Part shown: positions 20,210-37,511 of the stretch, one piece after another | Layout: the number at the start of each line of letters is the position of its first letter | Numbering within the stretch: the first letter of the stretch is position 1 | Assembly (NCBI RefSeq): GCF_037976325.1 | Contig: NZ_CP150265.1 | Coordinates: forward strand, 3,653,501-3,717,500 | Direction: 5' to 3' | DNA from: Paenibacillus sp. FSL K6-3182 | Lineage (GTDB): Bacteria; Bacillota; Bacilli; Paenibacillales; Paenibacillaceae | DNA length: 64,000 nt | The notes under the pieces: generated by a model | Told to the model about the DNA's origin: nothing | Database searches by the model: none | The model's input: only the letters and a program-made list of their open reading frames with translations | Program-made: the position numbers and the translations under genes

Positions 20210-20783
20210 GGCTGAGCACCTCAGCTAACACTGGAATATTTAAAGATGACAATAGCTTGTCCACAGACTGCTCATCAGCTTTAAACAAAGCTTTATTTAA
20301 CTGGTCTTTCGTCGATTGTTGAACACAGGATTGCCATTGCTGGAGAAAATGCCGATCATGAAACCAAAGGCGCTCGAGCTGGTGCTCGGGCAGCTTAGTT
20401 TGAAAGTCTAAAGGCAGTTTTTCAGCTAAACGATTTAAATCAGAGCTCGTGATGATTATCTTGCGAAAGAAAAAGCGGTTTGACTCGATGCGTTTTTTCA
20501 AAACATTGCTTAGCTCTTGCGCGTCTACAAAGAGGACTAAATACATGTCCCAACGCAAATCATCTAGTTCGCTGGGCAGCTGATTCTGTACCCGGTAAGC
20601 AAATTGATAAGCTGCTCGCTCCCAGTGATTCTCGAGTGATGATGGAGAGTCATAGGAAACGACAGCAAAAATTTGCTTCGCAGAAAAGTAAAGGGCATCT
20701 ATATGCCTAATCGATACATTTGTTAGCTTCTCAAGGTCAGATTGTTGGTCAAAAAAGTCAAATATCTGTTGCACCATTTTCAA
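20199..20783 (-). CDS. lmuC: Small middle component of the Lamassu-type module
   Basis: About 194 aa, no recognised catalytic motif; predicted mixed alpha/beta with aromatic-rich helices. Position between effector and SMC genes, length near 200 aa and strong overlaps identify it by context as the middle component (LmuC/DdmB class, ABC-three-component middle component). AAGGAG lies 6 nt before TTG 20783, which overlaps the effector stop as TTGA; ATG 20777 is the alternative start. In characterised systems this subunit links the SMC protein to the effector. Assignment by sequence alone would not be possible. Confidence 0.65.
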   Translation of the reverse strand: MKMVQQIFDFFDQQSDLEKLTNVSIRHIDALYFSAKQIFAVVSYDSPSSLENHWERAAYQFAYRVQNQLPSELDDLRWDMYLVLFVDAQELSNVLKKRIESNRFFFRKIIITSSDLNRLAEKLPLDFQTKLPEHQLERLWFHDRHFLQQWQSCVQQSTKDQLNKALFKADEQSVDKLLSSLNIPVLAEVLSHED

Positions 20784-22417
20784 ATCACACTCCTTAGTCG
20801 CGTGCAAATTTCTTCATAACTCACTTCATGTCTAACTTGACGCAAGCAAGAGGAACAACTGATACTGACCGTTCCGGATAAGCGATTAGATTCTAAACCT
20901 TCGAAGATGGTTAACTTTGTGTCTTGAGCAAATTGTAGTAATATTTTGGAAAAGTCAGCTTTACGGCCATTGTTGCAATGCTCGCATAGGTTTTCTGGGT
21001 TGCCTTTTGCGAGTGATTCCGTATTAATATTTTCGAGCAGCAAGCGATATGGGAATAAATCCGAATGGTCTCTGGACTTCATATAAGATTGAAAAGAATT
21101 GGTATAAAGTTTAGTCATAAATCCGATGACGACCTCAGGCATCGTTTCTTTAGCCTGTGAGTAGAGCATACGCACCCAGCGATCGGAATCCAGCTGAAGA
21201 TTGGACAAATGAACCCACTCCTCAGGATCGATAAAGTTCCAATCGGGATATACCAAATTGACGAGAGCCAGCAGCTCCCACAGCTCGCGCAGGCCGGGTT
21301 CTCCTTCAGGAAGACGAATGTTTGCAAATTGGTACAGCTTTAGAAACAGCTGTAATCTGCTTTCTTCCATCTCCTTCAGCTTTCGAAGAACATCATTCAT
21401 AGAAGCAATAAGCTTTGTTCTTATTTCGTCATCATTTTTGAAACGTCGTATGAAGATGGTATCCAGCGCGTGTCGGTGAATCTCAAATTGATCGTTTAAT
21501 CGAGCCTGCATCTTAGATACATTAGCTGATCCTGCTGGCTTGTCCGACAGGTCTAAGGAAGTTGTAATCTCTGGGGGGTTATCTTGTACACCTAATGGTG
21601 AAGGATTAAAAGGGCCAAGTACGTCTAGTAAAAGTCCTTTTAGAATATCGTAGTTCGTTGAGAGATGCCCTTGCAGCAGATCTAGAATGGTGCCATGATC
21701 ACCGGGCAGAGACCTGGCAAGCGCGTACTTGGTTGAATGTCCCATCGTAGGAACAGCACTTCCCTCCTCGACTACGGTGTCCTTGTCTCCGAAGCAGTAA
21801 ATGGACGTGAAGAAGCTCTTAAGCTCTTCTTGAGCATCAAAAAAGCTGCGGTTCATATCATCCAAAAAAGCGTTGTTTGAACGCAGCTGATCGATTTGCT
21901 TATGATTCTGAAAGCGCTTTATTAAATGGTGGAATTCAGCGAATTTAGAGCCGTTATAAGGTGTTGCATAGCTAATAAAGCCACCGATCCGTTCTAATCC
22001 TTTTTTGCGATGCAAATATTCGTTGAGTAGGAATCGTTTACCGATTAATCCTCCCATACTGTGGCCGACGATAACGATTTTCTCATATTTTCTATAGGTA
22101 TACCCATCCAAAATAGCCTTTAATTGAATAGCAAGCTGGTCTATGGACAGAGGACTTTTTTTACTGACACTAATTTTTTGACCTAAAACTTCAAACTCTC
22201 CTTCGATTCCAAAGATGCTGCTGATGAGCTTAGAGGTGTCATATGTAACGATACCAATATCCGTATCCGTGATGTCCGGATCTGATGCGATGAGCTCCGC
22301 CCAGTCTCTGCCTGGCTTTACCCACGTTTCAGGAGCGCCCAAACCATGAATCAGCAAGACTAGCATCTTGCCATTGCTTCCCGGTTTTCTCGGTTTCAGT
22401 TCGATCTGCATCGACAT
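20780..22417 (-). CDS. lmuA: Alpha/beta hydrolase (lipase-like) effector of the Lamassu-type module
   Basis: 545 aa. N-terminal alpha/beta hydrolase: oxyanion segment LIHGLG (residues 22-27), nucleophile elbow GHSMGG with S120, acid in GDKDTVVEEG and His in PGDHGTI. The middle part (about 300-470) is helical and unrecognised; the C-terminus has a zinc-ribbon pattern C478-x2-C481 and C521-x2-C524. Lamassu operons carry exchangeable effectors, lipase- and hydrolase-type among them; membrane or small-molecule hydrolysis leading to growth arrest is the expected outcome. AAAGGGG precedes ATG 22417. Substrate cannot be told from sequence. Confidence 0.78.
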   Translation of the reverse strand: MSMQIELKPRKPGSNGKMLVLLIHGLGAPETWVKPGRDWAELIASDPDITDTDIGIVTYDTSKLISSIFGIEGEFEVLGQKISVSKKSPLSIDQLAIQLKAILDGYTYRKYEKIVIVGHSMGGLIGKRFLLNEYLHRKKGLERIGGFISYATPYNGSKFAEFHHLIKRFQNHKQIDQLRSNNAFLDDMNRSFFDAQEELKSFFTSIYCFGDKDTVVEEGSAVPTMGHSTKYALARSLPGDHGTILDLLQGHLSTNYDILKGLLLDVLGPFNPSPLGVQDNPPEITTSLDLSDKPAGSANVSKMQARLNDQFEIHRHALDTIFIRRFKNDDEIRTKLIASMNDVLRKLKEMEESRLQLFLKLYQFANIRLPEGEPGLRELWELLALVNLVYPDWNFIDPEEWVHLSNLQLDSDRWVRMLYSQAKETMPEVVIGFMTKLYTNSFQSYMKSRDHSDLFPYRLLLENINTESLAKGNPENLCEHCNNGRKADFSKILLQFAQDTKLTIFEGLESNRLSGTVSISCSSCLRQVRHEVSYEEICTRLRSVI

Positions 22418-22565: not shown

Positions 22566-22589
22566 ACAAGGTAATTGAATAAACGAAAT

Positions 22590-22681
22590 GTTTTCTAGGG
22601 TTCCGCAGCGTAACCGTTGGTCTGGTCCGAGAGAAAACTCACAGCGATGCTGTGTCACGGAAGGATAAAAGCCTGGGAGAA
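22590..22681 (+). ncRNA. Guanidine-I riboswitch (ykkC leader)
   Basis: Contains the hallmark segments CTAGGGTTCCG, GGTCTGGTCCGAGAG, CACGG and GGATAAAAGCCTGGGAG in the order of the ykkC/guanidine-I consensus, directly upstream of an SMR gene pair. Binding of guanidinium disrupts the overlapping terminator and turns the operon on. Confidence 0.93.
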
Positions 22682-22718: not shown

Positions 22719-22753
22719 TTTTTTGGCAACAATAAAATTGGAGGTGTATTTTG

Positions 22754-23095
22754 GTGAATTCGAATTGGATTAAAGTATTTATTGCCGCTTTTTTCGAGGT
22801 TTTTTGGGTGATTGGCTTAAAACACGCGGATGATTTCTGGACGTGGGCAGGAACTGTTATTTCTATTATTATCAGCTTCTATTTAATGATCGCTGCAGGC
22901 AAAAAACTGCCCGTCGGAACGGTATATGCTGTTTTTGTAGGAATGGGTACGGCAGGAACTGTTTTTTCCGAAATCATATTTTTTGGAGAACCATTTAAAT
23001 GGACCAAAATGTTGTTGATTTTACTTTTATTAGCGGGAGTCATGGGCTTGAAATTGGTTACGAAGGATAAAGATCAGAAAGGAGCTGTATCCTAA
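22754..23095 (+). CDS. ykkC: SMR guanidinium exporter subunit (YkkC-like)
   Basis: About 113 aa, four membrane segments, with the conserved membrane Glu in [14 protein letters not shown] (about residues 12-25). In B. subtilis YkkC and YkkD form a paired transporter; guanidine-I linked SMR proteins export guanidinium in exchange for protons. GTG 22754 is chosen because GGAGGTG lies 7 nt upstream; TTG 22751 is closer than usual. Its TAA overlaps the next ATG by one base. Control by the riboswitch is clear from position. Confidence 0.9.
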
Positions 23096-23409
23096 TGGCT
23101 TGGATTTCTCTCATATTTGCAGGATTGTTTGAAATGTTTGGTGTTGCGATGATAAATAAATTGCATAAGGATCGCAATTGGCAATCCGTTGTATTATTAA
23201 CGATCGGATTTTTAGCAAGCTTCCTATTTCTTGCTTATTCCATGAAAACACTGCCTATGGGAACAACGTACGCCATTTGGACGGGGATTGGAGCGTCAGG
23301 CGGAGCTATATTGGGAATGCTTTTATATGGAGAATCGAAAGACTGGAAAAGGGTTGTTTTTATAACGATGGTATTAGGTTCAGCCGTAGGGTTGAAGCTT
23401 GTCTCTTAA
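23095..23409 (+). CDS. ykkD: SMR guanidinium exporter subunit (YkkD-like)
   Basis: 104 aa, four membrane segments, Glu in AGLFEMFGVAMINKLHKD (residues 9-26), WTGIGASGG in the third helix. Lengths of 113 and 104 aa and their order match ykkC-ykkD. Start overlaps the stop of the first gene (TAATG), implying coupled synthesis of the two halves of a heteromeric antiporter. Confidence 0.9.
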   Translation: MAWISLIFAGLFEMFGVAMINKLHKDRNWQSVVLLTIGFLASFLFLAYSMKTLPMGTTYAIWTGIGASGGAILGMLLYGESKDWKRVVFITMVLGSAVGLKLVS

Positions 23410-23524: not shown

Positions 23525-24787
23525 CTACCCCGCTGCACTCACTGTTTCATGCTGGTGATACACGACCGTTAACGTTTCTTTAAGGGCAAGGGCTAGTTCT
23601 TTTGCTTCTTGAGGGGTGTTGCCAACTGTAATGAAATAACCCAATCGATCATCCGAGCTTTTTGCTTCTGAGACCAAATCTCCTTCAGCTGCCGTTAGCT
23701 GTGCTCGGATAACATTTGTATGTTGTTCTAAATCGGCAAAACCTTCAATTCCATCGAAAATACCCTCTCGATCGGCGGTCACATAAGCAATTGAAGCTGC
23801 GCGGTTAAACCTTTTCTGAATATTGATCGGGTGGTTTAAATAATAGTTAACGGTTGCTTCAAATATATCGACACCGAACGCTTGCACTAATAAATCAGAA
23901 GAAATGTTGTCGCCTCCTGGCCTGCCGTTCACCTCGATAATTCGTGGCCCCGTACTTGTAAGCTTCACTTCTACGTGACTTGGTCCATTCACTATCCCAA
24001 TAGCTCTCAAAGCATCAACAGCCGTACGAACGATGTGATCCTCATGCTCTACATGCACTGAAGTAGGTAATGTATGAAGGATCTCAACAAAATAAGGAAG
24101 CGGCGAGGTCAATTTTTCAGTAACGGCCGAGAAAATGGGCTCCCCATCTTTTACGAACAATTCGACACTGAATTCTGGACCATCCAAGTACTCTTCAATT
24201 AAATACTCGTCGCGGACTTTAAAGTCCATATAAGTTACTTTAAACGCTGAGATCGCATCTATTGCATGCTTCAGTTCAATTGTATTGTTGATGAAATAAA
24301 CATTTTGACTGCTTGCGCAATTCGTCGGTTTTAATACGATAGGAAATCCGATCTCTTCCGCAGCTGCTAAAGCATCTTCGTAAGTTCTCACTTTTTTGAA
24401 TTTTGCACTCGGAACTTGATGTTCAGCATAAGCTTCTCTAGCCAAATCTTTGTTTCTCGACTTTAAAGCTGCTTCGTAGGGTACTCCTCTAAGTCCAATC
24501 CGCTCCGCAACCTTCGCAGTTACGTGAGAGGCGTAATCCGTAGCAGGAATTAACGCATCCAGTTGATTCGCATAGGGGGAGCTAACAATCGCTTGATAGA
24601 GTGACTCTTCATCTCGAATATCTGCGACAATCAAATCATGGTAGATCACTTCATATCCATACTTTTGCGGATTTTCCGTTGAAGAAACGATGGAAATAAC
24701 TTTATGTCCCTGTTCAAAAGCGACTCTCGCAAAACTAACGCCATAGAAACTTGGTTCAACAAAAGCTACCGTTTTAATTGCTGTCAT
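23525..24787 (-). CDS. ATP-grasp ligase (amino acid ligase-like)
   Basis: 420 aa. Pre-ATP-grasp N-terminal domain (about 1-110), then the ATP-grasp core: FPIVLKPTNCASSQNVYF near 150-165, EEYLDGPEFSVELFV near 198-213, and the metal site IIEVNGRPGGDNIS near 285-298. This resembles carboxylate-amine ligases such as the L-amino acid ligases and carbamoyl-phosphate-synthase-like proteins that form dipeptides via an acyl phosphate. AAAGGAGG precedes ATG 24787, 51 nt after the MFS gene. As the last gene of the carrier-protein operon it could couple the released amino acid to a second residue; the substrate is inference. Confidence 0.82.
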   Translation of the reverse strand: MTAIKTVAFVEPSFYGVSFARVAFEQGHKVISIVSSTENPQKYGYEVIYHDLIVADIRDEESLYQAIVSSPYANQLDALIPATDYASHVTAKVAERIGLRGVPYEAALKSRNKDLAREAYAEHQVPSAKFKKVRTYEDALAAAEEIGFPIVLKPTNCASSQNVYFINNTIELKHAIDAISAFKVTYMDFKVRDEYLIEEYLDGPEFSVELFVKDGEPIFSAVTEKLTSPLPYFVEILHTLPTSVHVEHEDHIVRTAVDALRAIGIVNGPSHVEVKLTSTGPRIIEVNGRPGGDNISSDLLVQAFGVDIFEATVNYYLNHPINIQKRFNRAASIAYVTADREGIFDGIEGFADLEQHTNVIRAQLTAAEGDLVSEAKSSDDRLGYFITVGNTPQEAKELALALKETLTVVYHQHETVSAAG

Positions 24788-24838
24788 CTTTTTATCCTCC
24801 TTTAATGGTTATGAAAGAAGTGGTTCGCAATGCAAATT

Positions 24839-26053
24839 TCAGGCTTCCAGAGTACTTTTTAGTGTCGCTTTACTATTCATCACAAAGTACACAACAAATC
24901 CGATGAACATTAAGCCGCTCATACAGATAAAACCCGCACCTGGAGAGAAATGATCAATGACAAGGCCAAGCCCTGTGGCGGACAAGGTCTGCAAGAGCAA
25001 GGAAATCGCCATCCAGACCGAAGTCGCTCGACCCATGTAGGATTTGGATACCGATTCCATCAGCGTCGTTGTCATCAAAATACGTAACGAAGAGTTCGTT
25101 AATCCGATCAACACACTGCCAAAATACAAAAGCAGAATCAAATGGTTAAACGCTACAGCGAGCAAGCTCAGCACGGATATCATAAAAAATAATAGTATGG
25201 TTCCATGTTGTGATATTTTTTTTGCCAAGGGTGCTGCAATAAATCCAGACAATAATCCCCCAATGCCATAAAACATATCTGACAAACCGAATACAACGGA
25301 ATCACCTTGCACCGTATTGCTCACATAACCAGGAAGAACGACATTGTAAATCATAGTGGAAACAAGTGGAATAATCGATACAATACCAAGCAAGAAAATA
25401 AATGGACGTTCCGCCAGATATTTTAGGCCATTCTTAAACGTTGCAAAAAAGGTCTCTTTATCATTTTCAAAAGGGATAGGTGTGTATTGAATTCGACTAA
25501 GTAAGAAGCTGCTCACGATAAAGGCGAGCGCATTTAGAAGAAGAATGATCTCAAAACCAACGAATTTGTACAACACTCCTGAAAGTGCACCAGCCATAAA
25601 CATCCCTACTTGCAAGCTGATTTCAATTAAGGAGTTGCCATGAATGAGATCCTTCTCCGTTAGAATTTCCTGAACCAGGCTTCGAGAAGCCGTCATGTAC
25701 ACGGTCCAGCCCATCCCGTTAATAATGGCAAAGGCATAAAGATATTCAATTCGGAATCCCGTCCATACAAAAGCTCCTGTAATGATTAACAAGGCGATCG
25801 CCCGAATGCCATTGGCCCATAAGATAATCGTTTTTCGATTCCATTTATCGATTAAGGTGCCTACGAATGCGGAGATGAGAAAACCTGAAATAACATTTAA
25901 GGAAAGCATGAACCCTATGGCGGTAATCGAATTTGTCTGATCCATGAGATACCAGTTCGCACCAATCGTACTCATGCCTACGCCGAACCCGGAAATAATA
26001 TCAGCGAAGGAATAATGGCGGAAGTTTCTTTGTTTAAGTACGCTAAAAACCAT
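24839..26053 (-). CDS. MFS transporter, probable product exporter
   Basis: 404 aa with about 12 membrane segments and the cytosolic loop LIDKWNRKTIILWANG between segments 2 and 3, the MFS signature in the form seen in drug exporters of the MFS_3 group. ATG 26053 overlaps the transketolase gene by 11 nt, with GGAGG upstream. Location inside the biosynthetic operon suggests export of the product or self-protection. Confidence 0.85.
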   Translation of the reverse strand: MVFSVLKQRNFRHYSFADIISGFGVGMSTIGANWYLMDQTNSITAIGFMLSLNVISGFLISAFVGTLIDKWNRKTIILWANGIRAIALLIITGAFVWTGFRIEYLYAFAIINGMGWTVYMTASRSLVQEILTEKDLIHGNSLIEISLQVGMFMAGALSGVLYKFVGFEIILLLNALAFIVSSFLLSRIQYTPIPFENDKETFFATFKNGLKYLAERPFIFLLGIVSIIPLVSTMIYNVVLPGYVSNTVQGDSVVFGLSDMFYGIGGLLSGFIAAPLAKKISQHGTILLFFMISVLSLLAVAFNHLILLLYFGSVLIGLTNSSLRILMTTTLMESVSKSYMGRATSVWMAISLLLQTLSATGLGLVIDHFSPGAGFICMSGLMFIGFVVYFVMNSKATLKSTLEA

Positions 26054-26981
26054 CCTTACCTCCTAGAATATTATGGATTTGTTGTTGCAGTGGTTCAAAC
26101 CCAAATCCTAAATAGTCTAGAACCTCAGCATGTGTACCGCCGTAGATTGGCCATTTCTCACCGCAATGATGTGAGTGAACTTGATGCTTTGGCAATAATA
26201 AGGCTAGATAGGACGCCGTACTGCCGGTTGCTCGATGCTCCTCAACGACCAGAAATTGGTCAGCTAAACCGCTTAATGGTTGAATATAAGGTTTCAAGCT
26301 TTGAATGTCGACGTAACATAAATGCGCATGTACGATATCGTCGTCTTCTTGAACGATCCGCTTGCAAAGTTCTGTTGCTTGTTCACCCACGGAAATCAAG
26401 CATAGTTTGGATCGGGCAGTACGTGCGCCTCCTTCAACAATTAAGTTTCTGCAGCTCTCGTCCTCTGCTCGATCCAAGCTGTCAAAAGCATCATTTCTAG
26501 AAAGGCGAATATAATACGGCTCCTCTGATGCTGCTGCTTCACGTATTACTCTTCGTGTTTCCTGCTCACCATGAGGGCAGGCGATCCGTATGTTCTGAAA
26601 CGATTGGAGGACTGCGATGTCCTCCAGTGCATGATGTGTCGTTCCAAACCAACCACCAGATACCCCTCCATACGCAGCTACAACCTTCACATTTTTTCCC
26701 ATATACCCCATCGTCAGCTTGATGCTTTCCGCTGCTCGCAATGCTGCAAAGGAAGCAAAGGTTGAGAAGAATGGCACATAACCTGCTTCAGCAAGACCGG
26801 CTGCCATATCAATGCCAGCTAATTCCGCGATGCCTAGATTAAAAAAACGCTGGGGATGCTGCTGTCCAAAAGGATGATTTTTGCCTCCTAGATCTGCTTC
26901 AATACATACAATTTGGTCGTTGCTGGAAGCAAGTGTAGTCAACTCATCTTTATAGGCATCTCTACCTGACTTCTTGGTCAT
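26043..26981 (-). CDS. Transketolase C-terminal subunit
   Basis: About 312 aa: pyrimidine-binding domain about 1-170 (NLGIAELAGIDMAAGLAEAGYVPFF, split; the conserved activating Glu of IAE is present) and C-terminal transketolase domain about 185-310. ATG 26981 follows GGAAGGTG and overlaps the stop of the N-terminal subunit gene by ATGA, so the longer frame start at 26999 is rejected. Split transketolases occur in secondary metabolism; in the vazabitide pathway such a pair adds a two-carbon unit to a carrier-bound glutamate semialdehyde. Confidence 0.9.
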   Translation of the reverse strand: MTKKSGRDAYKDELTTLASSNDQIVCIEADLGGKNHPFGQQHPQRFFNLGIAELAGIDMAAGLAEAGYVPFFSTFASFAALRAAESIKLTMGYMGKNVKVVAAYGGVSGGWFGTTHHALEDIAVLQSFQNIRIACPHGEQETRRVIREAAASEEPYYIRLSRNDAFDSLDRAEDESCRNLIVEGGARTARSKLCLISVGEQATELCKRIVQEDDDIVHAHLCYVDIQSLKPYIQPLSGLADQFLVVEEHRATGSTASYLALLLPKHQVHSHHCGEKWPIYGGTHAEVLDYLGFGFEPLQQQIHNILGGKDGF

Positions 26982-27778
26982 GATAAATTCACCTTCCATT
27001 TATGGGCGAGCTTCTCCGGGATTTTAACATAATGCGCTTCGGGGTTTCCTTCAATCGCTGCAACACCTTTTCCTTTTATCGTATTGGCTAGGACGGCTAC
27101 CGGTCTATCTGGATCTGGTTCAATCGCGGCAAGGATTTCTTCGAAATGATGGCCGTTGATTTCCTTGACAGCAAAGCCAAACGCTTCAAATCTTTGCCGG
27201 AGATTGCGAAGCGGTGATATGTCATGCACATAACCATCGTTTTGGCCTCCGTTGCAATCTACGATATATACAAAATTAGTGATCGACTGGGCTTGGACAA
27301 TCTGTGCGGTTTCCCAGCATAACCCTTCCTGCAGCTCCCCATCTCCACCGATCACAATCCCTAGTCCATTCGTTTGTTTCATCTTTTGCGCCAGTGCCCA
27401 GCCTGCTGCGTAAGGAATGCCATGACCCAAACTGCCTGTAGCGAAGGGGATTCCTGATAGTTTATGATTAGGATGACCTGTGAACAAAGAGCCTGCTTTT
27501 CCATAGCTATCCGCTGGGTTATCCTTGATAATCCCGTATACATGGAGCGCGGCATATAATGCTGCTGCAGCATGCCCTTTGCTAAGAATGATGAGCGTAT
27601 TGGGATCTTCAACATATTTCGAATACGCACCAATCAATAAGTCAATCGCAGAAAGACTTCCGCCGATATGGCATCCTGTAGGTGATGCAGCCATGTCAAT
27701 AATCAATTTCCTCGCTTCTTTCGCTTTATCAACCAGCAGGGAAATTTCTTCCCTTTGAATATCGATTGCCAGCTCCAT
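26978..27778 (-). CDS. Transketolase N-terminal subunit
   Basis: 266 aa thiamine-diphosphate-binding half: HIGGSLSAIDLLIGAY near 37, LSKGHAAAALYAAL near 65, and the ThDP-magnesium motif GGDGELQEGLCWETAQ at about 148 with the paired N in VDCNGGQNDG. ATG 27778 follows directly on the TAA of the LysZ-LysK gene, with GGAGG upstream, and its stop overlaps the C-terminal subunit start. Together the two subunits make one transketolase active site. Confidence 0.92.
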   Translation of the reverse strand: MELAIDIQREEISLLVDKAKEARKLIIDMAASPTGCHIGGSLSAIDLLIGAYSKYVEDPNTLIILSKGHAAAALYAALHVYGIIKDNPADSYGKAGSLFTGHPNHKLSGIPFATGSLGHGIPYAAGWALAQKMKQTNGLGIVIGGDGELQEGLCWETAQIVQAQSITNFVYIVDCNGGQNDGYVHDISPLRNLRQRFEAFGFAVKEINGHHFEEILAAIEPDPDRPVAVLANTIKGKGVAAIEGNPEAHYVKIPEKLAHKWKVNLS

Positions 27779-29626
27779 TTATTCCTCCAATCTCAGCCGA
27801 AACCATTCGTTTACGGCTTCCTTCAAAATTGTTCTGGTCTGCTCTACCTCACCGTAATGTAAATATTCATCATTCGTATGATCCAAGCTGGAATCCCCTG
27901 GACCATAAGCTACCATCGGGACGGAATCCCAAGTTGTGGCCAGCGTATTCATGTCGCTCGTTCCACGTTTTTTGATATAGTGAATCGATTTTCCCTGCTT
28001 TGCGAAACTGCGAACAAAAGCTTTGACTAATGAGCCTGTGCGAGAGTTCGAAAAACCTGGTGTTGCACGCAGGATTTCAACAGTCACATTTTCACCAAAT
28101 GACAAATCAATTTTTTTCCAATAATCGTTGCCTGCCGCAGGTGATATTCTAAAGTTTAACGTCCCTTTTACCGTCAAAAAGCCCCGTTCATTCTGATGCT
28201 CGATATCAATTAATGAGGATAGGGATTGCGGATCGATATCACGTACGAGAACACGAATATCTGATACGACACTGTACAATTCGTCGATAACACTCTGGCT
28301 ATCTTTGGCTGCGGTATGCTCCTGAGCTCGATGAATAGTAATTTCCAGCTTAAAGAGACCGTAATAACCAAGGGTTAAGCTCTCTACCCCGCTCGGCTCC
28401 CCAATAATAACCGCATCCGCTTTGTAATGATCTCGAATGAAATGAGCTCCTTTTGATGATGATATTTCTTCTTCGACGGCTCCAATTACAAGTAAAGATC
28501 CCTGCTCTGGCACATCAACTTCTTGCAGCAAATGAATGAAATTTACAAAGCAGCCTTTAGCATCCACGATTCCCCTGCCCGTAATGCCTTTGGAGTCGGA
28601 TCGAACAGGCCAAACATGCGGAACCGTATCTATATGCCCTAACAAGAGCAGCGTATGGGGACCATTCCCTTTGCGGAAAACGATGTTCCCAGCGTGGTCA
28701 ATTTCCCCCGAAACCGGAGGTTGCTTTATCGTCTCTAATAAGTAGTGTGAAAGCACATGCTCATCTTGAGAGACCGAAGGAATGCGCGCGACTTTATTCA
28801 ATAAATCGAATGCGCCGAGTTCCCGATCCATGTTCCAGAACCACGTTTTGCCGGGTGCTTCCAAGGTATGAGGACCGGATATATTCACATCACAGACGCC
28901 CTGTCGGATTGCTAATTGGGCTGCGCGTACTTTTTGCTTCATGCGCCCTTTTACAAAGCTTAATTCATCATTCGTATAGACACTTTGTATCGTTGAATGT
29001 TTATCTTCAATATCTTCCAGTAAACCTGCAGTTCCAGTAACAAAGCGCAGGTGATGCGCTTCTAAGTCCACTGCTAAGTGAGCAGCAAGCACGTCTGCAT
29101 CAATGTTTATGTACACATCCAGTTCTGGATCTAATATTGGTGGAGAAACACATACAACATCAAAGGCCTGTAAAGCAGATTTGAGAAATGCCACATGACT
29201 GCCCACAAAATGACCGAACATCGAATCACGGACAATAATTGATTTTTGATTCTTAATCACTTTAAGGGGTTTCGCTTTCTCACCATAGACGAGACCTTGA
29301 TCTCCACCAAGCTGTGAGAAAACAGAAAGACCGTATGCCTTCAGCTGTGTATGTATAGTGGGCAAAATAATCTCATGATAGGCTGCACGGATAATCGGCA
29401 TCTCTTCGGGTGAACAGTACCGCACTTCATCCCCTGACGGCAATGTAAGAAAAGGCATCGCACGAGGAATGGATTCATATTTTTGCTTAATGGCTTCGGC
29501 ACCGCCTGCCACAAGCAGCACTTGATTTCCTCGCTTTACGATACGGCTAATTTCTTCGAAAATGTGAGGATGGTTTACAATCGTACTGCTCCCGAGTTTA
29601 ATTACAAATAAGCTGCCGCTGCTCAT
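27779..29626 (-). CDS. LysZ-LysK fusion: carrier-glutamate kinase plus M20 carboxypeptidase
   Basis: 615 aa. Residues 1 to about 262 form an amino acid kinase of the LysZ/ArgB type: FVIKLGSSTIV near 8, LLVAGGAEAI near 38, and FVTGTAGLLED near 195. Residues about 265-615 form an M20 metallopeptidase of the LysK/ArgE type: H331-x-D333 in LGHIDTVP, D355 in GIVDAKG, catalytic E385-E386 in GAVEEEIS, and the terminal His in HTNDEYLH. LysZ phosphorylates carrier-bound glutamate; LysK releases the product from the carrier. These are normally separate proteins. ATG 29626 overlaps the LysY-like stop (TGATG); GTG 29635 is the alternative. Confidence 0.88.
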   Translation of the reverse strand: MSSGSLFVIKLGSSTIVNHPHIFEEISRIVKRGNQVLLVAGGAEAIKQKYESIPRAMPFLTLPSGDEVRYCSPEEMPIIRAAYHEIILPTIHTQLKAYGLSVFSQLGGDQGLVYGEKAKPLKVIKNQKSIIVRDSMFGHFVGSHVAFLKSALQAFDVVCVSPPILDPELDVYINIDADVLAAHLAVDLEAHHLRFVTGTAGLLEDIEDKHSTIQSVYTNDELSFVKGRMKQKVRAAQLAIRQGVCDVNISGPHTLEAPGKTWFWNMDRELGAFDLLNKVARIPSVSQDEHVLSHYLLETIKQPPVSGEIDHAGNIVFRKGNGPHTLLLLGHIDTVPHVWPVRSDSKGITGRGIVDAKGCFVNFIHLLQEVDVPEQGSLLVIGAVEEEISSSKGAHFIRDHYKADAVIIGEPSGVESLTLGYYGLFKLEITIHRAQEHTAAKDSQSVIDELYSVVSDIRVLVRDIDPQSLSSLIDIEHQNERGFLTVKGTLNFRISPAAGNDYWKKIDLSFGENVTVEILRATPGFSNSRTGSLVKAFVRSFAKQGKSIHYIKKRGTSDMNTLATTWDSVPMVAYGPGDSSLDHTNDEYLHYGEVEQTRTILKEAVNEWFRLRLEE

Positions 29627-30678
29627 CAGGGCCACGCTCCCTCAAATTCAAATGTCAATCCCGCCTCCTCAGAGTATCCAAAATAATTGTTTGCTGCCTG
29701 TATGGCTTGCCCCGCAGCTCCTTTAATTAAATTATCGATGGTTACGATGGAAACACAATTTCGTCCATCCACATAAGCACCGATTTCTGCATAGTTTGTT
29801 CCTACCACTGTTTTGATCATAGGTGAACCATTGCCCGAGTTAAAATAATGAAGAAAGGGTTTGGATGAATACGTGCTGTAGAATGCTTTTTTTACATCTA
29901 CCTCTGTTACATGCTCTTTGAGCAAGGAATACGAGGTTGTCATAATTCCTCGGGGAAGATCAAGACTATAGACCGAAAATTGCAAATTTACCGTTTGATT
30001 CAAATGATAGGATAATGCATACACGACTTCGGGCTGATGACGATGACCATGAACTTTATATGCTCTGAAGTTATGGGAGCGCTCCGCATGATGTTCTGTT
30101 GTCGATTTTCCGCCGCCGCTGGAGCCCGTCTTGGCATCAGTGACTATACGTCCTTCAATTAAGCCATGCGCCACAAGCGGATAAAGTGTATACAGCGTCG
30201 CCACCGCCATACAGCCCGGAAGATTGACTACCTTTGCTTCAGTATTGATTTTGCTGAACTCTGGAATATAGTAGTGCCATCCGCCTTCATATGCATGTTT
30301 TAATGTTTCTGGATAATGTTGATGCAATATATCGGGGTCGGATATACGATAATCCCCGCTTAGATTAAAGATATAGTCTGTATGCTCTGCAATATGCTGG
30401 ATGATCTTAGGCAAGGAGCCTGTAGGCAAACAGGAGAAGACCGCATCGTAATGACCGTCTAATTCGGATATTTTTTTAAACTTTAACGAGCTGAGCTTTT
30501 TCTTATGAATAGAACCAATATAGAACTTATCCACCGGGTATCCCGCCTTGGATTCGGAGGACACAAACTGAACTTCAAAATGAGGATGCTTATTTAGCAG
30601 CCTGTATAACTCAGCGCCAGTGAACCCGCTGCCGCCTAAAATGGCTACTCGTTTCGTTTGTTGTTCTGCTGTACTCAT
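29626..30678 (-). CDS. LysY/ArgC-like carrier-glutamyl-phosphate reductase
   Basis: 350 aa. Rossmann motif AILGGSGFTGAELYRLL at 12-28 and the active-site Cys in VVNLPGCMAVATLY near 153, with catalytic His region HGHRHQPE near 212, as in N-acetyl-gamma-glutamyl-phosphate reductase. In carrier-protein operons such proteins (LysY) reduce the acyl phosphate to the semialdehyde with NADPH while the substrate stays on the carrier. ATG overlaps the aminotransferase stop as ATGA. ArgC of arginine synthesis is the alternative, but no arginine genes are nearby. Confidence 0.88.
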   Translation of the reverse strand: MSTAEQQTKRVAILGGSGFTGAELYRLLNKHPHFEVQFVSSESKAGYPVDKFYIGSIHKKKLSSLKFKKISELDGHYDAVFSCLPTGSLPKIIQHIAEHTDYIFNLSGDYRISDPDILHQHYPETLKHAYEGGWHYYIPEFSKINTEAKVVNLPGCMAVATLYTLYPLVAHGLIEGRIVTDAKTGSSGGGKSTTEHHAERSHNFRAYKVHGHRHQPEVVYALSYHLNQTVNLQFSVYSLDLPRGIMTTSYSLLKEHVTEVDVKKAFYSTYSSKPFLHYFNSGNGSPMIKTVVGTNYAEIGAYVDGRNCVSIVTIDNLIKGAAGQAIQAANNYFGYSEEAGLTFEFEGAWP

Positions 30679-32000
30679 CCTAATCTAGCGTCTCTTTCGT
30701 ACAGCACTTTAAGATCGCTGCCTCGCTCTACCAGTTCTCGAATTATATGCGGGTTCGCATCAATTTTTTTGAAAGCTAAGGCGTAAGCTTGAATTCGCTC
30801 ATATTCTATAGGCGTTCTTAATTCTCTGCATATCGTTAAGCTGTTTCTAAGCATCTTCAATGTTTCAGGGAAATGGTTCAAATCGTAACCAAAATCTTGA
30901 CGGTCCGATAACGTAAACGGATAACCATTTCCAAAGCCTTTCCGATTTTTGAATGGCAGATGCCCTGGTATCGGTACATTTTGCCACTCTCTAGCAAATA
31001 CCCCTTCAGAATTAATGAGCTGCTGAACGGCATCTTTTATAAGATAATCCTCCAAATCCTCAAGCCCAAGTCGCTCGGGTGAGAGTTTAACGCGATACAT
31101 ATTATAACTGTGCTTATACCCATCCGGTACGAATGGTCCGCTAAACAGCTTAGTCTCTGAAAGCGCATTGGTTAGATAGGCTGCATTCCGTGCACGAATG
31201 GCATCATAATAAGGAAGTCGGGAAAGCTGGCTCAAACCGAAAGCAGCTGCGATCCACGACATGCGGTAATCAATACCTGATGAATCAAGGAACGCGAGTG
31301 CGCGCTCATAATCCTCTTTTTCTTTGAAAAAGGCGATGCCTCCTTCCCCGCCTACAGGAAAGTTTTTGTCGGCCATTAAGCTTTGTCCTGCACTGTCTCC
31401 GATCGAACCGGCGAGTTGTTGATGGATCGATGCGGAATGCGCATGGGAGGCATCCTCCACTAGACGAAGGGAATACTTGTCAGTCAGATGTCTCAATGCA
31501 GGTAAATCAGCAGGCAGGCCATGTACATGCACAGGCATGATTGCCTTTGTCTTGTTCGTTATGGCTTGCTCTGCTTTTAGTGGATCCAAGCAATAGGTTA
31601 TAGGGTCAATGTCCACAAAAATGGGGATCGCTTTCGCTGCAACAACGGCTTGAGCGGTTGCTATGAATGTGAATGCAGGAACGATCACCTCATCCCCGGG
31701 CTGTACACCTGCCCCAACTAATGCGAGGTGCAGGCTGGATGTACCGCTCGCTGTAGCAATCGCATAATTCGCCCCTACATAATTGCGGTACGTTTCTTTG
31801 AACTCATCGACAACTTGCTCTCCATCCTGCTGGATGGAGATAAGCATTTGGATGACATCTTCCTTCGTAATGATTGGGAAATTCGTCTTCCTTACATCCT
31901 CTGGAATAATCGATGGTCCTCCCAGAAAGGCTAATGGCGCTTGAACCCAATCGTCTGATGGCAGCGCTAACGGCTTGCGAATAAAATCCGACTTCATCAT
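30675..32000 (-). CDS. DegT/DnrJ/EryC1 family aminotransferase
   Basis: 441 aa PLP enzyme. ASGTSSLHLAL near 85, PAFTFIATAQAV near 108, PLP-stacking/Asp region LVEDASHAH (D183) and the Schiff-base Lys K212 in MADKNFPVGGEGG. Family members aminate keto groups of sugars or cyclitols; here the likely substrate is the keto product of the transketolase step on the carrier. ATG 32000 follows AAGGAGG and overlaps the preceding gene stop by ATGA, so the frame start at 32036 is rejected. Confidence 0.88.
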   Translation of the reverse strand: MMKSDFIRKPLALPSDDWVQAPLAFLGGPSIIPEDVRKTNFPIITKEDVIQMLISIQQDGEQVVDEFKETYRNYVGANYAIATASGTSSLHLALVGAGVQPGDEVIVPAFTFIATAQAVVAAKAIPIFVDIDPITYCLDPLKAEQAITNKTKAIMPVHVHGLPADLPALRHLTDKYSLRLVEDASHAHSASIHQQLAGSIGDSAGQSLMADKNFPVGGEGGIAFFKEKEDYERALAFLDSSGIDYRMSWIAAAFGLSQLSRLPYYDAIRARNAAYLTNALSETKLFSGPFVPDGYKHSYNMYRVKLSPERLGLEDLEDYLIKDAVQQLINSEGVFAREWQNVPIPGHLPFKNRKGFGNGYPFTLSDRQDFGYDLNHFPETLKMLRNSLTICRELRTPIEYERIQAYALAFKKIDANPHIIRELVERGSDLKVLYERDARLG

Positions 32001-32662
32001 GATTGGTTCCTCCTTAAGAGTGTTAACTTCACGCATGCTGCCACGAGCGGGCTAAGCCTATAGTTGAACTGTAAGGCTGGCTGCAGGTCAGGTTCACTTT
32101 CTTCCTGTGTCCACATTGTTTGTAGATCAAATGCACCAAAAATCTTCAAGCGCTCTGCTTTTTTCCAAATGTTCTCATCATTTGCTGCGATGGCAGCTAC
32201 CGGACCAAAGCCTAATCCCGTAAAATCCAAAACGAGAACGGGAGCGCGGTCGCTGACTTTAAAAATGATCTGGTCCAACTGCTGAAGATTATCCCAATTA
32301 ACTTCAACGGTCACATAAGCCTGCTTTATGTGTTGATCTGAAATGAGTGTGATTCCTAACCAATGAATAAACTTTTTTTCCTGCTCACTCGGATGATCCA
32401 GTCGTGCAGATGTATGGTAGCCTAAGTCCTGTCCCCACAGCGCACCATGAATCGCACCCGTGTAACTATTAAATAAGGAGACATATTTCTTGTTGGTCAG
32501 CTTGGCTATCCCTTTCTCCAATCCTTTTAATTCAAGATCATTTTTTTCAATACTCATAATGACGCCTGAATTTAGTACTCTCGATAATACAAAAGACAAT
32601 GAAAAATAGTTTTCTTTTTGGATGACAGCTTCTGGTTTCGTTAATGTTTCTCCCATTTCCAA
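31997..32662 (-). CDS. Degenerate DegT-like protein, no PLP lysine seen
   Basis: 221 aa. Weak DegT resemblance: KKYVSLFNSYTGAIHGALWG (about 57-76) matches the N-terminal substrate loop of the family, and FNYRLSPLVAACVKL near the C-terminus matches the NYRMSELQAAL helix. The stretch carrying the PLP Asp and Schiff-base Lys is shortened and the TKN/DKN lysine motif is absent, so catalysis is unlikely. It overlaps the active aminotransferase gene by ATGA; a heteromeric structural or substrate-binding partner is inferred. Start TTG 32662 or ATG 32656, both behind GGGAGG. Confidence 0.6.
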   Translation of the reverse strand: MEMGETLTKPEAVIQKENYFSLSFVLSRVLNSGVIMSIEKNDLELKGLEKGIAKLTNKKYVSLFNSYTGAIHGALWGQDLGYHTSARLDHPSEQEKKFIHWLGITLISDQHIKQAYVTVEVNWDNLQQLDQIIFKVSDRAPVLVLDFTGLGFGPVAAIAANDENIWKKAERLKIFGAFDLQTMWTQEESEPDLQPALQFNYRLSPLVAACVKLTLLRRNQS

Positions 32663-32676
32663 TTTAACCTCCCTAT

Positions 32677-33573
32677 TTACCGCGATATAACAGTTAAGTT
32701 GGCCTTATTTTTTCGTTCAATCGCAGCTTTTACATATTGTGCAATATGGTAGGCCACATCGACACCATGAATTTTCCAAGACTTTGCGAATTCCGGGTTT
32801 TGATTCACTTCACAAACGACATACCGTTGCTGCTTGTAATCAAAAAACAAGTCTGCACCATAAATGCCTTCGCCCAAAACCTCAATTATTTGTTTGCAAA
32901 TGGATGCCATTTCTTCATTAATTTCTAGAGGATCGATCTCCGCGCCTAGATGCGTATTCGTCTTCCAGTTGTCTGCTGAAACTCGGCGGAACGCAGCAAT
33001 CGGTTTGCTGCCTACGATGACAACACGGATATCAAAATCGCCTTTTTCCACATATTCTTGCACTAATACAGGGAACGATTGATGCCCAGGATCTACAGAT
33101 TCCCTTGCAGCTATCCACCCATCTAAGCATTCTTTGCCGGTGATTCTAGCTATTCCTCTTCCCCAAGATGAGGTTGCCGGCTTAATGACACATAAATCTC
33201 CAAATGTCTGCAAAGCTTGGAAGAGCTTCTCAGGTGTAAAAGCTACTTTATATTGGGGCTGGGGAATGCCATGTTTTTGAAACACAATCGCTTGATGTAT
33301 TTTATTTGTACAAATAGTAATTGCTTTGACCGAATTCAACGTTTCAAGACCGGCTAATTCAAGCAGATGGGCTCGATTCAACGCGTTTTTCTGTGAGAGA
33401 CAACGAATGAGAGCAAGTCCGAAGGAATGGACATCAGGCTCGCCTAATGGTAACTCCATGGAATCCAAGTTCACCTGCACTTGTACGCCTAAAGCTCGAA
33501 GATGATCGATAATTCGTTGTTCTTCTTCCCGCAACTTTGTAACACATAATAAAATCACACGATTCTGCTCCAT
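32677..33573 (-). CDS. LysX-like ATP-grasp ligase (glutamate to carrier protein)
   Basis: 298 aa RimK/LysX-type ATP-grasp enzyme: FGDLCVIKPATSSWGRGIAR near 125-144, LVQEYVEKGDFDIRVVIVG (about 172-190), and the metal site VCEVNQNPEFAKSW near 255. LysX and ArgX join the alpha-amino group of an amino acid to the C-terminal Glu of the LysW carrier using ATP. The gene starts 9 nt after the carrier gene, and its own stop is 14 nt before the next start. The substrate is probably glutamate, by analogy with related pathways. Confidence 0.87.
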   Translation of the reverse strand: MEQNRVILLCVTKLREEEQRIIDHLRALGVQVQVNLDSMELPLGEPDVHSFGLALIRCLSQKNALNRAHLLELAGLETLNSVKAITICTNKIHQAIVFQKHGIPQPQYKVAFTPEKLFQALQTFGDLCVIKPATSSWGRGIARITGKECLDGWIAARESVDPGHQSFPVLVQEYVEKGDFDIRVVIVGSKPIAAFRRVSADNWKTNTHLGAEIDPLEINEEMASICKQIIEVLGEGIYGADLFFDYKQQRYVVCEVNQNPEFAKSWKIHGVDVAYHIAQYVKAAIERKNKANLTVISR

Positions 33574-33582
33574 GTTCGGTTC

Positions 33583-33756
33583 CTACTCTCCCCAAGTTTC
33601 TTCTATTTCTGGAGCTAAAGCGATGCTGACGAGATTAGATTCGACCTGCACTTCATGCTCTTGACCGCATGAACCGCATTCCAAAATTTCACCCGTCGTT
33701 ACACTCTCTTCCACCTCGATATCCGACTTGCATACAAGACAATTCAAATCTGCCAT
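33583..33756 (-). CDS. Amino-group carrier protein (LysW-like, 57 aa)
   Basis: Small acidic protein starting MADLNCLVCKSD and ending EIEETWGE. CxxC (C6, C9) and CxxC (C27, C30) form the zinc ribbon of LysW; the C-terminal E-x-W-G-E corresponds to the EDWGE tail whose last Glu side chain carries the amino acid. GGAGGTGCAAGGAAA gives a strong ribosome binding site. First gene of the operon, immediately upstream of the LysX-like ligase, as in lysine and vazabitide-type pathways. The protein protects the amino group and presents the substrate to each enzyme. Confidence 0.93.
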   Translation of the reverse strand: MADLNCLVCKSDIEVEESVTTGEILECGSCGQEHEVQVESNLVSIALAPEIEETWGE

Positions 33757-33862: not shown

Positions 33863-35527
33863 CTATTTCGTTTCTATATCCCACTGGTTTACATTATTGA
33901 ACGTACCTAGATTAAGCGGTTTTCCAACCAGAACGTTTTTTGATACGACCTGCAAACGTTTCTCGGAATAAACAGCTAAAGTGGCAACCTCATCATGCAG
34001 TACCTCTTGCAGTTGGTTATAAATCTCGTGACGTTTTTCCTCTATAATTTCTTGTTCGCCCTTTTTAATCAGCTCATCGACTAATGGATTCTTAAATCGA
34101 ATCACACTCTCGGGATCATCACTTTTATAGGTTGTAAAATAGAGGCTCGGTTCGATATAGTAATCTCTTGTGAATATGGTAATGTCATGCTCGCCCTTCT
34201 CCACTTTATCGATTAACGTTGGGAAATCGAATTTCTGAACGTCTACTTTAATCCCAACAGATTCTAAGTTTTGTACGAGAATATCAGCAGCCTGCTCACG
34301 AACCTTATTCCCAACTGGAATAATAAATGTAATGGTACGTTTGGGATCCCAGTTCGCTTCTTTTAAAAGCTCTTTTGCTTTTTCAGGATTGTAATCATAA
34401 TTGGCAATATTTTTATTAAAATAAGGATGCGAGCTTGGGATGCCTCCATCAATAATTTCGGCCTGCCCTTTGAGCAGTTGCTCCACAATGAGTGGACGGT
34501 TCAACGCATAGGCGATCGCTTGGCGCACTTTTTTATCTGGCAGCTTCTCCGTATTGAAGAAAATTTCGGCCGGCTCAGAAGCTGGAGCAGAGGTTACATT
34601 TACATTCTCAAAGCCCTTGACCTTATCATAATCCGTAATCGGTACAAGCCCGACCGGCAAAGAATTCATTTGAATTTCTCCCGTCTGCAGCTGTGCTACA
34701 AGATTTGCCGCGGGATGCACCTTTATGAATATCGTGTCAATCTTAGGTACATCGAGGTAGTACTTTTCATTTTTTGTCACCTCGACAAATTGCCCCTGCT
34801 CATAATTCGCAAACTTATAGGGACCAATGGTGACTAATGGTTTTTGAAAATATTCGTTCGTTGAAAGCTGCTCTGGATTGGCATCTTTCAGAATATGCTC
34901 GGGCAAGAAATTAACCTTAACACCGAAACGTTCATTAAATACGAGCGGATCGATCGGTGTTTTTGTTTTGATCTCGAAGGTCGTTGGATCGATGATTTTT
35001 AATCCGGATAGCTCTGTCTTCCCTTCATCCAGTTTCCCAATGTCATTTAAACCTTCGATAAAATCCAGCTTGAAGGATGATTCTACTTTGGCATGGAGGG
35101 CAAGCTTTAAGGTGAAAGCCACATCTGCCGTTGTAAAAGGGTTGCCATCGTTCCATTTGGCATTCGCTTTGAGTTTGATACGGTAAGTTTGCTTATCCTG
35201 CGTCTCGATAGATTCCGCCAGCTTCGGAATAAATTGTGCGGTATCCGTTACATCGAGCAAAGAATCGTTAAGTAAATTAATGGGCGCCAGCGACGCCGAG
35301 CTTCCTTGCGTATTGATTTGATTTAAAGTAACAGGAGCATTAACGATGCCAATGTATAAGGTTTTTTTTGCTTTGGCATCGTTGGTTGTTGCCTTAACAT
35401 AAAACTCCTCCTTGGCTGGTTCTGCTGTTGCTTCGACATTCACCTGCTTCGTTTCACTGCAAGCCGATAGGAAAATCAAGAAGATGGTTAATACTATGAA
35501 ACCTTGTACTCGAAACCTTGTTTTCAT
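33863..35527 (-). CDS. Family 5 ABC solute-binding lipoprotein (oligopeptide type)
   Basis: 554 aa. Lipobox LSAC at about residues 20-23, then the family 5 fold (IETQDKQTYRIKLKANAKWNDGNPFTTADVAFTLK, split; DKKVRQAIAYALNRPLIVEQLLKG, split). Binds peptides, nickel complexes or sugars. ATG 35527 is chosen since AAAGGAG lies 10 nt upstream and the signal peptide then starts normally; the frame start at 35629 would bury it. Last gene of a five-gene transporter operon and only 106 nt upstream of the carrier-protein gene, so the two operons may be read together. Confidence 0.87.
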   Translation of the reverse strand: MKTRFRVQGFIVLTIFLIFLSACSETKQVNVEATAEPAKEEFYVKATTNDAKAKKTLYIGIVNAPVTLNQINTQGSSASLAPINLLNDSLLDVTDTAQFIPKLAESIETQDKQTYRIKLKANAKWNDGNPFTTADVAFTLKLALHAKVESSFKLDFIEGLNDIGKLDEGKTELSGLKIIDPTTFEIKTKTPIDPLVFNERFGVKVNFLPEHILKDANPEQLSTNEYFQKPLVTIGPYKFANYEQGQFVEVTKNEKYYLDVPKIDTIFIKVHPAANLVAQLQTGEIQMNSLPVGLVPITDYDKVKGFENVNVTSAPASEPAEIFFNTEKLPDKKVRQAIAYALNRPLIVEQLLKGQAEIIDGGIPSSHPYFNKNIANYDYNPEKAKELLKEANWDPKRTITFIIPVGNKVREQAADILVQNLESVGIKVDVQKFDFPTLIDKVEKGEHDITIFTRDYYIEPSLYFTTYKSDDPESVIRFKNPLVDELIKKGEQEIIEEKRHEIYNQLQEVLHDEVATLAVYSEKRLQVVSKNVLVGKPLNLGTFNNVNQWDIETK

Positions 35528-35591
35528 TTGTTTCTCTCCTTTTGTTTTATTGCTTTTTCTATTTAAATAATTAAATAGCAGCTTCATGTAC

Positions 35592-36515
35592 TTAGGCTCT
35601 TGCATCAAACGCATCTCGAAGGCCGTCACCTACAAAGTTAATCGCAAGAACGGTAATGAGAATAACGATGCCAGCGGGTACCCATAACCATTGCTGCTCC
35701 GTTAAAACCGTTAGCGATTGTGCATCATGCAGCATATTGCCAAGGCTCGCCTGAGGGGATTTGACCCCCATCCCAAGGAAACTAAGTCCAGCTTCACTAA
35801 GAATTGTGCTGGCAACGCCAAACGTTGCATTCACAATGATTGGCCCCAATACATTTGGAAAAATATGCTTCAATAGTATTCGCGGGGTGTTGTATCCAAG
35901 CGCAACGCCGGCGCGGACAAAATCCATTTGTTTCATGGATAATACGCTTCCCCTGACAAGCATTGCTATTGTTGGCCATTTGAATAGTGCGAGAACAAGG
36001 ATGATCGTGGTTGCACTTGCACCAAGCACGCTCACGATGACCAACACAACCATCATGTAAGGAAAACTTAAGAAAATATCAGTCAAACGCATAAGTGCCA
36101 TATCCAGCCATTTTCCATAGTAACCAGCAATTAGTCCAATGAATGTTCCGAAGGTTACGTACAAAGCAACTGTAAAAAAACCAATCATTAAAGATACCCG
36201 TGTTCCATAAATCAACCGGCTTAATACATCCCGCCCTACTTGATCAGTGCCTAACCAGTGTGTAAGCGAGGGATGGGCTGAGAACACATCTGTAATTTCA
36301 TTAGGCTGACTCGGAGCAAGCCACGGAGCAAAAAGCGCGATACTAAGCAGCAGCAAGGTAGTTACAAGTCCCCATACCGCCAGCTTGTGCTTAATAAACT
36401 TACGCCTCACTAATTGGGCATGACTCTCCATTACATCCAAGGACAGTTCGTCTTCATCGCCATGATCTGAAGAAAATGTATCTTTCCTCATCCATGGCAT
36501 TTCACTAACGGACAT
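35592..36515 (-). CDS. ABC transporter permease (DppC/OppC type)
   Basis: 307 aa; cytosolic N-terminus, membrane segment at about 45-65, then five to six further segments. HWLGTDQVGRDVLSRLIYG (about 90-108) is the N-terminal signature of DppC-type permeases, and the EAA loop is EAGLSFLGMGVKSPQASLG. It forms the channel with the DppB-type protein, whose gene ends 16 nt upstream. Confidence 0.9.
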   Translation of the reverse strand: MSVSEMPWMRKDTFSSDHGDEDELSLDVMESHAQLVRRKFIKHKLAVWGLVTTLLLLSIALFAPWLAPSQPNEITDVFSAHPSLTHWLGTDQVGRDVLSRLIYGTRVSLMIGFFTVALYVTFGTFIGLIAGYYGKWLDMALMRLTDIFLSFPYMMVVLVIVSVLGASATTIILVLALFKWPTIAMLVRGSVLSMKQMDFVRAGVALGYNTPRILLKHIFPNVLGPIIVNATFGVASTILSEAGLSFLGMGVKSPQASLGNMLHDAQSLTVLTEQQWLWVPAGIVILITVLAINFVGDGLRDAFDARA

Positions 36516-36531
36516 TCGCTATCCCCTCCAA

Positions 36532-37482: not shown

Positions 37483-37511
37483 CGATGCCTTCTCCTTTCC
37501 TAGCCTTTGTG

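Follow-up and report, generated by a model that had tools for sequence, protein, structure and literature searches.

A ten-gene Paenibacillus operon with a DegT/dDegT gene pair, predicted to build a DADH-type amino acid on a LysW-type carrier protein

Amino-group carrier proteins (AmCPs) link building blocks via the γ-carboxylate of their C-terminal glutamate and serve to make lysine, ornithine and 2,6-diamino-5,7-dihydroxyheptanoate (DADH), as described in passages of a PNAS paper of 2022 (PMC9303977). For azinomycin, passages of a review describe how a two-part transketolase lengthens a protected glutamate semialdehyde, which a transamination then turns into DADH; an azabicycle stands at the end of the pathway (PMC9570651). 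DADH also feeds nonribosomal peptide synthetase products such as vazabitide A, according to the same passages of PMC9303977. An aminotransferase of this chemistry, Fic25 of Streptomyces ficellus, is seen in PDB entry 8gyj with a pyridoxal phosphate (PLP)-(5S,6S)-N2-acetyl-DADH adduct, as its title states. A further set of entries, 8y96-8y98, released on 2024-12-18 and titled as a heterooligomeric aminotransferase of Serratia sp. ATCC 39006, is known from the PDB titles as an aminotransferase structure alone. Here we describe an operon in a stretch of 64,000 nucleotides of Paenibacillus sp. FSL K6-3182 (NZ_CP150265.1, positions 3,653,501 to 3,717,500), called the window below. The operon is real, coherent and conserved, and it adds a separate class, found in a new group of hosts, to the known carrier-bound DADH-type synthesis; we name this class after its short degenerate DegT subunit, dDegT. 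The operon probably builds DADH or a close analogue on a LysW-type carrier, and then likely ligates the freed amino acid and exports the dipeptide.

Ten open reading frames lie on the minus strand between 33756 and 23525 of the window, and their Pfam and NCBIfam assignments agree with the families named in a preliminary description of this DNA. The carrier gene (33583-33756) encodes an AmCP of 57 residues that ends in EETWGE and matches PF21344 with 42.9 bits. It is followed by a LysX-type RimK/ATP-grasp ligase (32677-33573; PF08443, PF22626 and LysX/ArgX-type PDB homologues) with a predicted role in loading the carrier with glutamate, by dDegT (31997-32662), a protein of 221 residues without the ADKN-type lysine motif that matches the small chains of 8y96/8y98, and by the DegT aminotransferase with the PLP lysine at 224 (30675-32036; PF01041, 60% identical to 8y96_A). 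Next come a LysY/ArgC-type acyl-phosphate reductase (29626-30678; PF01118, PF22698, TIGR01850) and a fusion of a LysZ kinase and a LysK M20 hydrolase domain with a GTG start (27779-29635; PF00696, PF01546, TIGR01902). The transketolase is split into an N-terminal half, TktN (26978-27778; PF00456), whose best solved match is the split-chain transketolase 6yak, and a C-terminal half, TktC (26043-26999; PF02779, Transket_pyr). The last two genes encode a predicted exporter of the major facilitator superfamily (MFS; 24839-26053; PF07690, PF05977) and an L-amino-acid-ligase-type ATP-grasp enzyme, LAL (23525-24787; PF13535, ATP-grasp_4, with PF18603, LAL_C2; 3vot and BacD as solved matches).

The genes had been described as almost all overlapping by 1-40 nt. 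Overlaps, of 40, 4, 10, 22 and 11 nt, occur at only five of the nine junctions; at three others the genes are 9, 14 and 51 nt apart, and at the last one they abut. Each of 15 aligned sequences has a methionine at the position of Met14 of the annotated DegT frame (31997), and 7 of them begin there; Met14 is likely the true start, which would shrink the 40-nt dDegT/DegT overlap to 1 nt. Upstream of the carrier gene, a weak promoter-like match and, by eye, a good ribosome-binding site were found, and promoter-like matches around the operon were not commoner than in shuffled sequence.

The gene pair of DegT and dDegT was compared with the solved structures. The AlphaFold model of DegT (pLDDT 78.8) matched best the large chains of 8y96-8y98, at 60% identity, followed by Fic25 (8gyi/8gyj) at 33-34%. 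For dDegT, no Pfam or NCBIfam match was obtained at E 0.001. Its model (pLDDT 79.9) found the small chains of 8y96/8y98 as the best fold match in Foldseek, at 46-50% identity, and by profile these chains scored 327 bits. An alignment of 20 sequences shows dDegT to be a conserved family with invariant MSIEK and FNxR residues; the ADKN motif is present in none of the 20. The place expected for the PLP lysine, located by weak alignments, mostly reads like DFTxLGFGP, where x is a lysine in one of the 20 sequences, the Serratia protein. A direct alignment of dDegT with DegT gave no meaningful result, and the profile match had a probability of 3.4% though its E-value was 0.013, so the kinship of the two proteins rests on the fold search.

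Both chains of the Serratia aminotransferase are thus homologous to proteins of the window, in which the short dDegT and the catalytic DegT are encoded side by side. By homology, dDegT is a real subunit family whose relatives were crystallised together with relatives of DegT, and the Serratia enzyme is the closest system with experimental data. The locus that corresponds to it, L090 (Prodigiosinella confusarubida), has the ten genes in the same order including the ligase and the MFS gene, with a dDegT of 51% identity by tblastn. The chain matches to 8y96-8y98, together with the Fic25-DADH adduct structure, make it most likely that DegT and dDegT together make up a single hetero-oligomeric enzyme with a DADH-type substrate, an assembly predicted from the Serratia chains. 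dDegT probably completes or shapes the active site of DegT or its carrier docking. A literature search with few subscription papers in its scope returned no paper on the Serratia aminotransferase, its pathway or its product, and no described operon of the dDegT kind outside Streptomyces. The dDegT class places this solved hetero-oligomeric aminotransferase in the context of a predicted pathway. Within the literature searched, it also takes DADH-type synthesis on carrier proteins beyond Streptomyces, into Bacillota and Pseudomonadota.

In the proposed route, LysX would attach the amino group of glutamate to the C-terminal glutamate of the carrier by a predicted isopeptide bond; its gene adjoins the carrier gene. 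The LysZ half would phosphorylate the side-chain carboxyl of the bound glutamate, LysY would reduce it to the semialdehyde, TktN and TktC would add a two-carbon ketol unit and the hetero-oligomer of DegT and dDegT would transaminate the resulting ketone. The LysK half would release the product, which LAL would couple to another amino acid, and the MFS protein would export the dipeptide. We infer each of these reactions, as well as which amino acid is made and what the ligase joins it to; DADH is the product predicted from the homology to Fic25. The gene set for carrier-bound DADH synthesis (AmCP, LysX, LysZ, LysY, the two-part transketolase, DegT and LysK) is complete in the window. By analogy, the carrier-bound DADH chemistry is well supported, because the 8y96-8y98 and Fic25 PLP-DADH adduct structures match. 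Dipeptide formation is proposed because of the LAL_C2 domain and the nearest solved ligases, the BL00235 ligase (3vot) and BacD. LAL has both domains of L-amino acid ligases, matches these two enzymes in sequence and has a predicted ligase activity.

The carrier and the LysW-type enzymes were then scored against family models. A search at E 0.001 found a single carrier gene in the complete 7.56-Mb single-contig chromosome. Its PF21344 score exceeds the family cut-off, whereas its 25.5 bits on the LysW equivalog TIGR01206 are below the cut-off of 53.2. Also below their cut-offs are LysX on TIGR02144 (206.3 bits, cut-off 275.6), the LysZ half on NF003367 (252.6, cut-off 363) and the LysK half on NF010659 (108.9, cut-off 223). 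The LysZ-LysK fusion exceeds the cut-off of the subfamily TIGR01902 (292.4 bits, cut-off 163.1), and LysY that of the argC model TIGR01850 (282.6 bits, cut-off 233.6), where a second argC elsewhere in the genome outscores it with 457.8 bits. The cysteine pairs of the AmCP zinc ribbon (C6, C9, C27 and C30, the zinc itself being predicted) are present in all 69 aligned loci, and the tail WGE in 67 of 67. The PLP lysine of DegT and Glu59 of TktC are kept in 71 of 71 loci and the metal-ligand positions of the LysZ-LysK fusion in 71-72 of 72. Catalytic positions, with the roles that are usual for these enzymes, are kept throughout the 71-72 aligned loci except for one glutamate and one asparagine, each lost once. 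This conservation and the gene families were observed directly, as were the gene order and the co-crystallisation of DegT and dDegT homologues.

The distribution of the class was followed with dDegT, which is present in 14 of 51 genomes of the genus and in 27 of 295 genomes of Paenibacillaceae, the window's included, in 6 of 19 genera. All ten genes stand in the same order in the 26 other Paenibacillaceae loci, at identities down to about 50%, which places the arrangement far beyond chance; a dispersal of the genes in close relatives, which the preliminary description had named as evidence against its reading, was not seen. Gathered by dDegT, so that its presence among them is not independent, were 73 loci, 70 from a scan of genome contigs with the dDegT alignment and three from a plasmid collection. 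In 68 of the 73, AmCP, LysX, dDegT, DegT, LysY, LysZ-LysK, TktN and TktC follow in this order on one strand, as in the window; the remaining five loci run into contig ends. The loci span Bacillota, Pseudomonadota and Actinomycetota, with members in Paenibacillaceae, Bacillaceae, Thermoactinomycetaceae, Clostridium and Staphylococcus, in Chromobacteriaceae, Chitinibacteraceae and Enterobacterales and in many Actinomycetota. Because the class is small and well ordered, direct identification of its product may be feasible. A 54-kb plasmid of Staphylococcus epidermidis (L055, NZ_CP043848.1) carries the core with ligase, MFS and oxidoreductase genes, and a dDegT protein cluster with 129 member sequences has the source name Staphylococcus aureus. 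In Enterobacter sp. EA-1 (L124), the core genes were found by translated search with several reading frames interrupted.

The genes beside the core differ between loci. A LAL-like ATP-grasp gene is present in 65 of the 73 and a homologue of the window MFS gene in 33. These 33 loci, defined by homologues of the window MFS and LAL, form type A of Bacillota and Enterobacterales. Type B comprises 25 loci of Actinomycetota, Chromobacterium and Chitinimonas with another LAL, the protein X580 and, in 24 of them, a second MFS gene. In five loci a FemAB-like gene accompanies an ATP-grasp gene, six have a short-chain dehydrogenase/reductase without a ligase, and four fit no type. X580 (L095:7938-9680 and 24 other loci) has 580 residues, is fixed beside the type-B clusters and gave no Pfam or NCBIfam match.

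The ten genes named in the preliminary description are all present, but that set omits an eleventh gene, which is displaced in this strain. It lies on the minus strand at 12694-13230 of the window, 10.3 kb from LAL, and encodes a flavin mononucleotide (FMN)-reductase/flavodoxin-like protein (PF03358, 74 bits) that is 68% identical to the product of the gene next after LAL in L079. Homologues occur in 29 of the 33 type-A loci: directly after LAL in 23 and, where the order is swapped, after the MFS gene in two. In the remaining four (L055, L088, L090 and L124) the homologue lies upstream of the carrier gene, with an identity of 35-41%, and may be another gene of the family. Four type-A loci lack the gene: L058, which comes from the window's own species, L076, L078 and L084.

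To compare the dDegT class with the ficellomycin type, LysX was searched in 295 Streptomyces genomes, with at most eight candidates scored per genome. Thirteen matches were close (E < 1e-120). A further 42 were distant and came from 39 genomes, of which two have a close LysX as well. dDegT lies within 1.5 kb of LysX in 12 of the 13 close loci, the thirteenth (G445) being cut by a contig end, and in none of the 17 distant loci that were read, each over up to 20 kb. Eleven of these 17 have DegT, both transketolase halves and LysX without dDegT, and four show no cluster. LysZ and LysK are in separate frames in all nine dDegT-free loci that show both; L175 and L187 show LysK alone. A whole-genome profile search that gave 294-348 bits for three positive controls found no dDegT in the 11 dDegT-free cluster genomes; its two weak partial matches there (E 3e-5 and 5e-4) coincide with full-length DegT genes or fall close to them. 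In a DegT tree of 83 sequences, 71 of the dDegT class, including the window's, split from 12 others with support of 100/100. The tree was midpoint-rooted for drawing, carries a long-branch warning, above all for L182, and omits L089, L124, L127, L183-186, L189 and L190, which gave no stop-free match of at least 300 residues. In two of the distant loci, L185 and L186, AmCP, LysX, LysY, a split transketolase and, nearby, a LysZ-LysK fusion (57%) were seen with no DegT match.

One distant locus, L188, is taken as the ficellomycin locus because its DegT and Fic25 share 100% identity across 425 residues. Like the window, this presumed ficellomycin locus has AmCP, LysX, LysY, LysZ, LysK, TktN, TktC and a DegT; unlike the window, LysZ and LysK are separate, the order is different, dDegT is absent from the genome and a PF19798 sulfotransferase lies 0.4 kb from LysX. 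The window proteins are 30-42% identical to those of L188, with no match for dDegT, MFS or LAL within 20 kb, whereas all ten matched in L090, at 46-60%. The vazabitide A and azinomycin pathways, which we compared through literature passages and not through cluster sequences, resemble the window in the glutamate protected by a carrier or an acetyl group, the transketolase and the transamination to DADH, as far as the passages in PMC9570651 and PMC9303977 describe them. The logic of the vazabitide and ficellomycin pathways, invoked for the operon in the preliminary description, fits the core gene content; however, these systems are a sister class, and not the closest system to the window operon.

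Sulfotransferase genes were sought in both classes. PF00685, first used as the marker, was the wrong family for the reference clusters: over 20 genomes it gave four short matches, including a weak one that lies some 3 kb away from a distant LysX in G351. PF19798 worked and was found in seven of ten dDegT-free cluster genomes, 0.4-28 kb from LysX in six. It is absent from 14 of 15 dDegT-class genomes; the fifteenth is G445, counted in this class by its LysX, where it lies beside a second, distant LysX. Judged by its LysX genes, G445 appears to hold both cluster classes, the second adjoining the PF19798 sulfotransferase. The window genome has no sulfotransferase by either family, as had been claimed, and the ten genes include no nonribosomal peptide synthetase by Pfam, which also agrees with the earlier claim.

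With the core enzymes in common, the operon might be thought to make an azabicyclic product via a sulfated intermediate, of the vazabitide or ficellomycin kind. We consider this very unlikely: the window has none of the traits of that class (a cluster-linked sulfotransferase, a single DegT without dDegT, separate LysZ and LysK), PF19798 follows the dDegT-free clusters, and the DegT tree splits the classes. The azabicyclic end product was rejected on the missing sulfotransferase and the class separation. It is extremely unlikely that the operon serves primary lysine or arginine synthesis through LysW. That synthesis uses the carrier, LysX, LysZ, LysY and LysK families, and LysY passes the argC cut-off, but it is not known to include a transketolase, dDegT or ligase. 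It offers no place for the transketolase, the hetero-oligomeric DegT, the ligase or the exporter, the better argC lies elsewhere, and the occurrence in 27 of 295 genomes of the family is patchy. This role was rejected on the equivalog scores and the second argC, despite the LysY score. Rather unlikely, in our view, is a different amino acid made by the same carrier logic, with another donor or stereochemistry, or with an early release that gives a hydroxylated piperidine from a 2-amino-6-keto compound. The low identity to the presumed ficellomycin proteins, the DegT branch far from Fic25 and the FMN-reductase homologue, which has no assigned step and occurs in 29 of the 33 type-A loci, are in its favour. 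However, of the 13 Streptomyces loci that were found by a close LysX and not chosen by dDegT, 12 have dDegT next to that LysX, which suggests that the transamination is part of the route, and the closest solved enzyme outside the dDegT class carries a DADH adduct.

Several points weigh against carrier-bound DADH synthesis followed by ligation as we propose it. The AmCP, LysX, LysZ and LysK are below the LysW equivalog cut-offs and LysY is above that of ordinary argC, so the LysW-pathway function is transferred by analogy. Given the lysine of the Serratia protein near the expected place, dDegT is a putative 'pseudo-subunit' only. The identity of only 30-42% to the presumed ficellomycin proteins makes another two-carbon donor, stereochemistry or product possible, and the FMN-reductase homologue has no assigned step in the route.

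Upstream of the operon, genes of an Opp-type peptide ATP-binding cassette (ABC) transporter lie on the minus strand at 33863-39502 in the order A, C, B, F and D, 106 nt from the carrier gene. A, C, B and F were assigned by PF00496, PF00528 and PF00005, and D, at 38480-39502, was named by eye. Opp genes are in the 10-kb upstream flank of 19 of 28 Bacillota loci, and the full set is absent from the other nine. Sixteen of the 19 flanks have the same arrangement, L077 is rearranged, L078 has low identity and L081 is inverted. The window genome holds nine PF00496 genes by manual reading of ten rows, so that a given locus would have an Opp set no more than 5 kb away, on one side or the other, by chance in about 1% of cases. 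The counts are only suggestive because shared ancestry explains most of the 19; the Opp set is possibly linked to the operon but is not part of its core. The dipeptide might then be no antibiotic but a signal, an osmolyte or a shuttle that is re-imported by the adjoining transporter. We regard this as unlikely, since the Opp neighbours, though found in more than one arrangement, are lacking as a full set in nine of the 28 loci and mostly follow from common descent in the others. It is doubtful, though worth stating, that this second, cross-phylum class with its hetero-oligomeric aminotransferase makes DADH dipeptides that enter cells via Opp as smuggled antimetabolites of the cell wall or of lysine; such an entry would explain the recurring Opp neighbours. 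DADH and diaminopimelate share a seven-carbon 2,6-diamino skeleton, DADH having one carboxyl as CH2OH and an extra hydroxyl. If the dipeptide does mimic diaminopimelate or lysine, the operons would represent a compact antibiotic family whose gene set is also found on a staphylococcal plasmid.

Between LAL and the displaced eleventh gene lies a Lamassu/ABC-3C-like defence module (17363-22417, minus strand) with an LmuB-like SMC ATPase, an LmuC/MComp1-like protein and an LmuA-like serine-esterase/CTD5 protein. A link of the operon to a guanidine-I riboswitch at 22584-22681 (plus strand, 85.3 bits) was set aside, as the riboswitch is on the opposite strand and precedes two small exporter genes. 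These genes, SMR/Gdx-like by eye, lie at 22751-23409 on the plus strand and are convergent with the operon.

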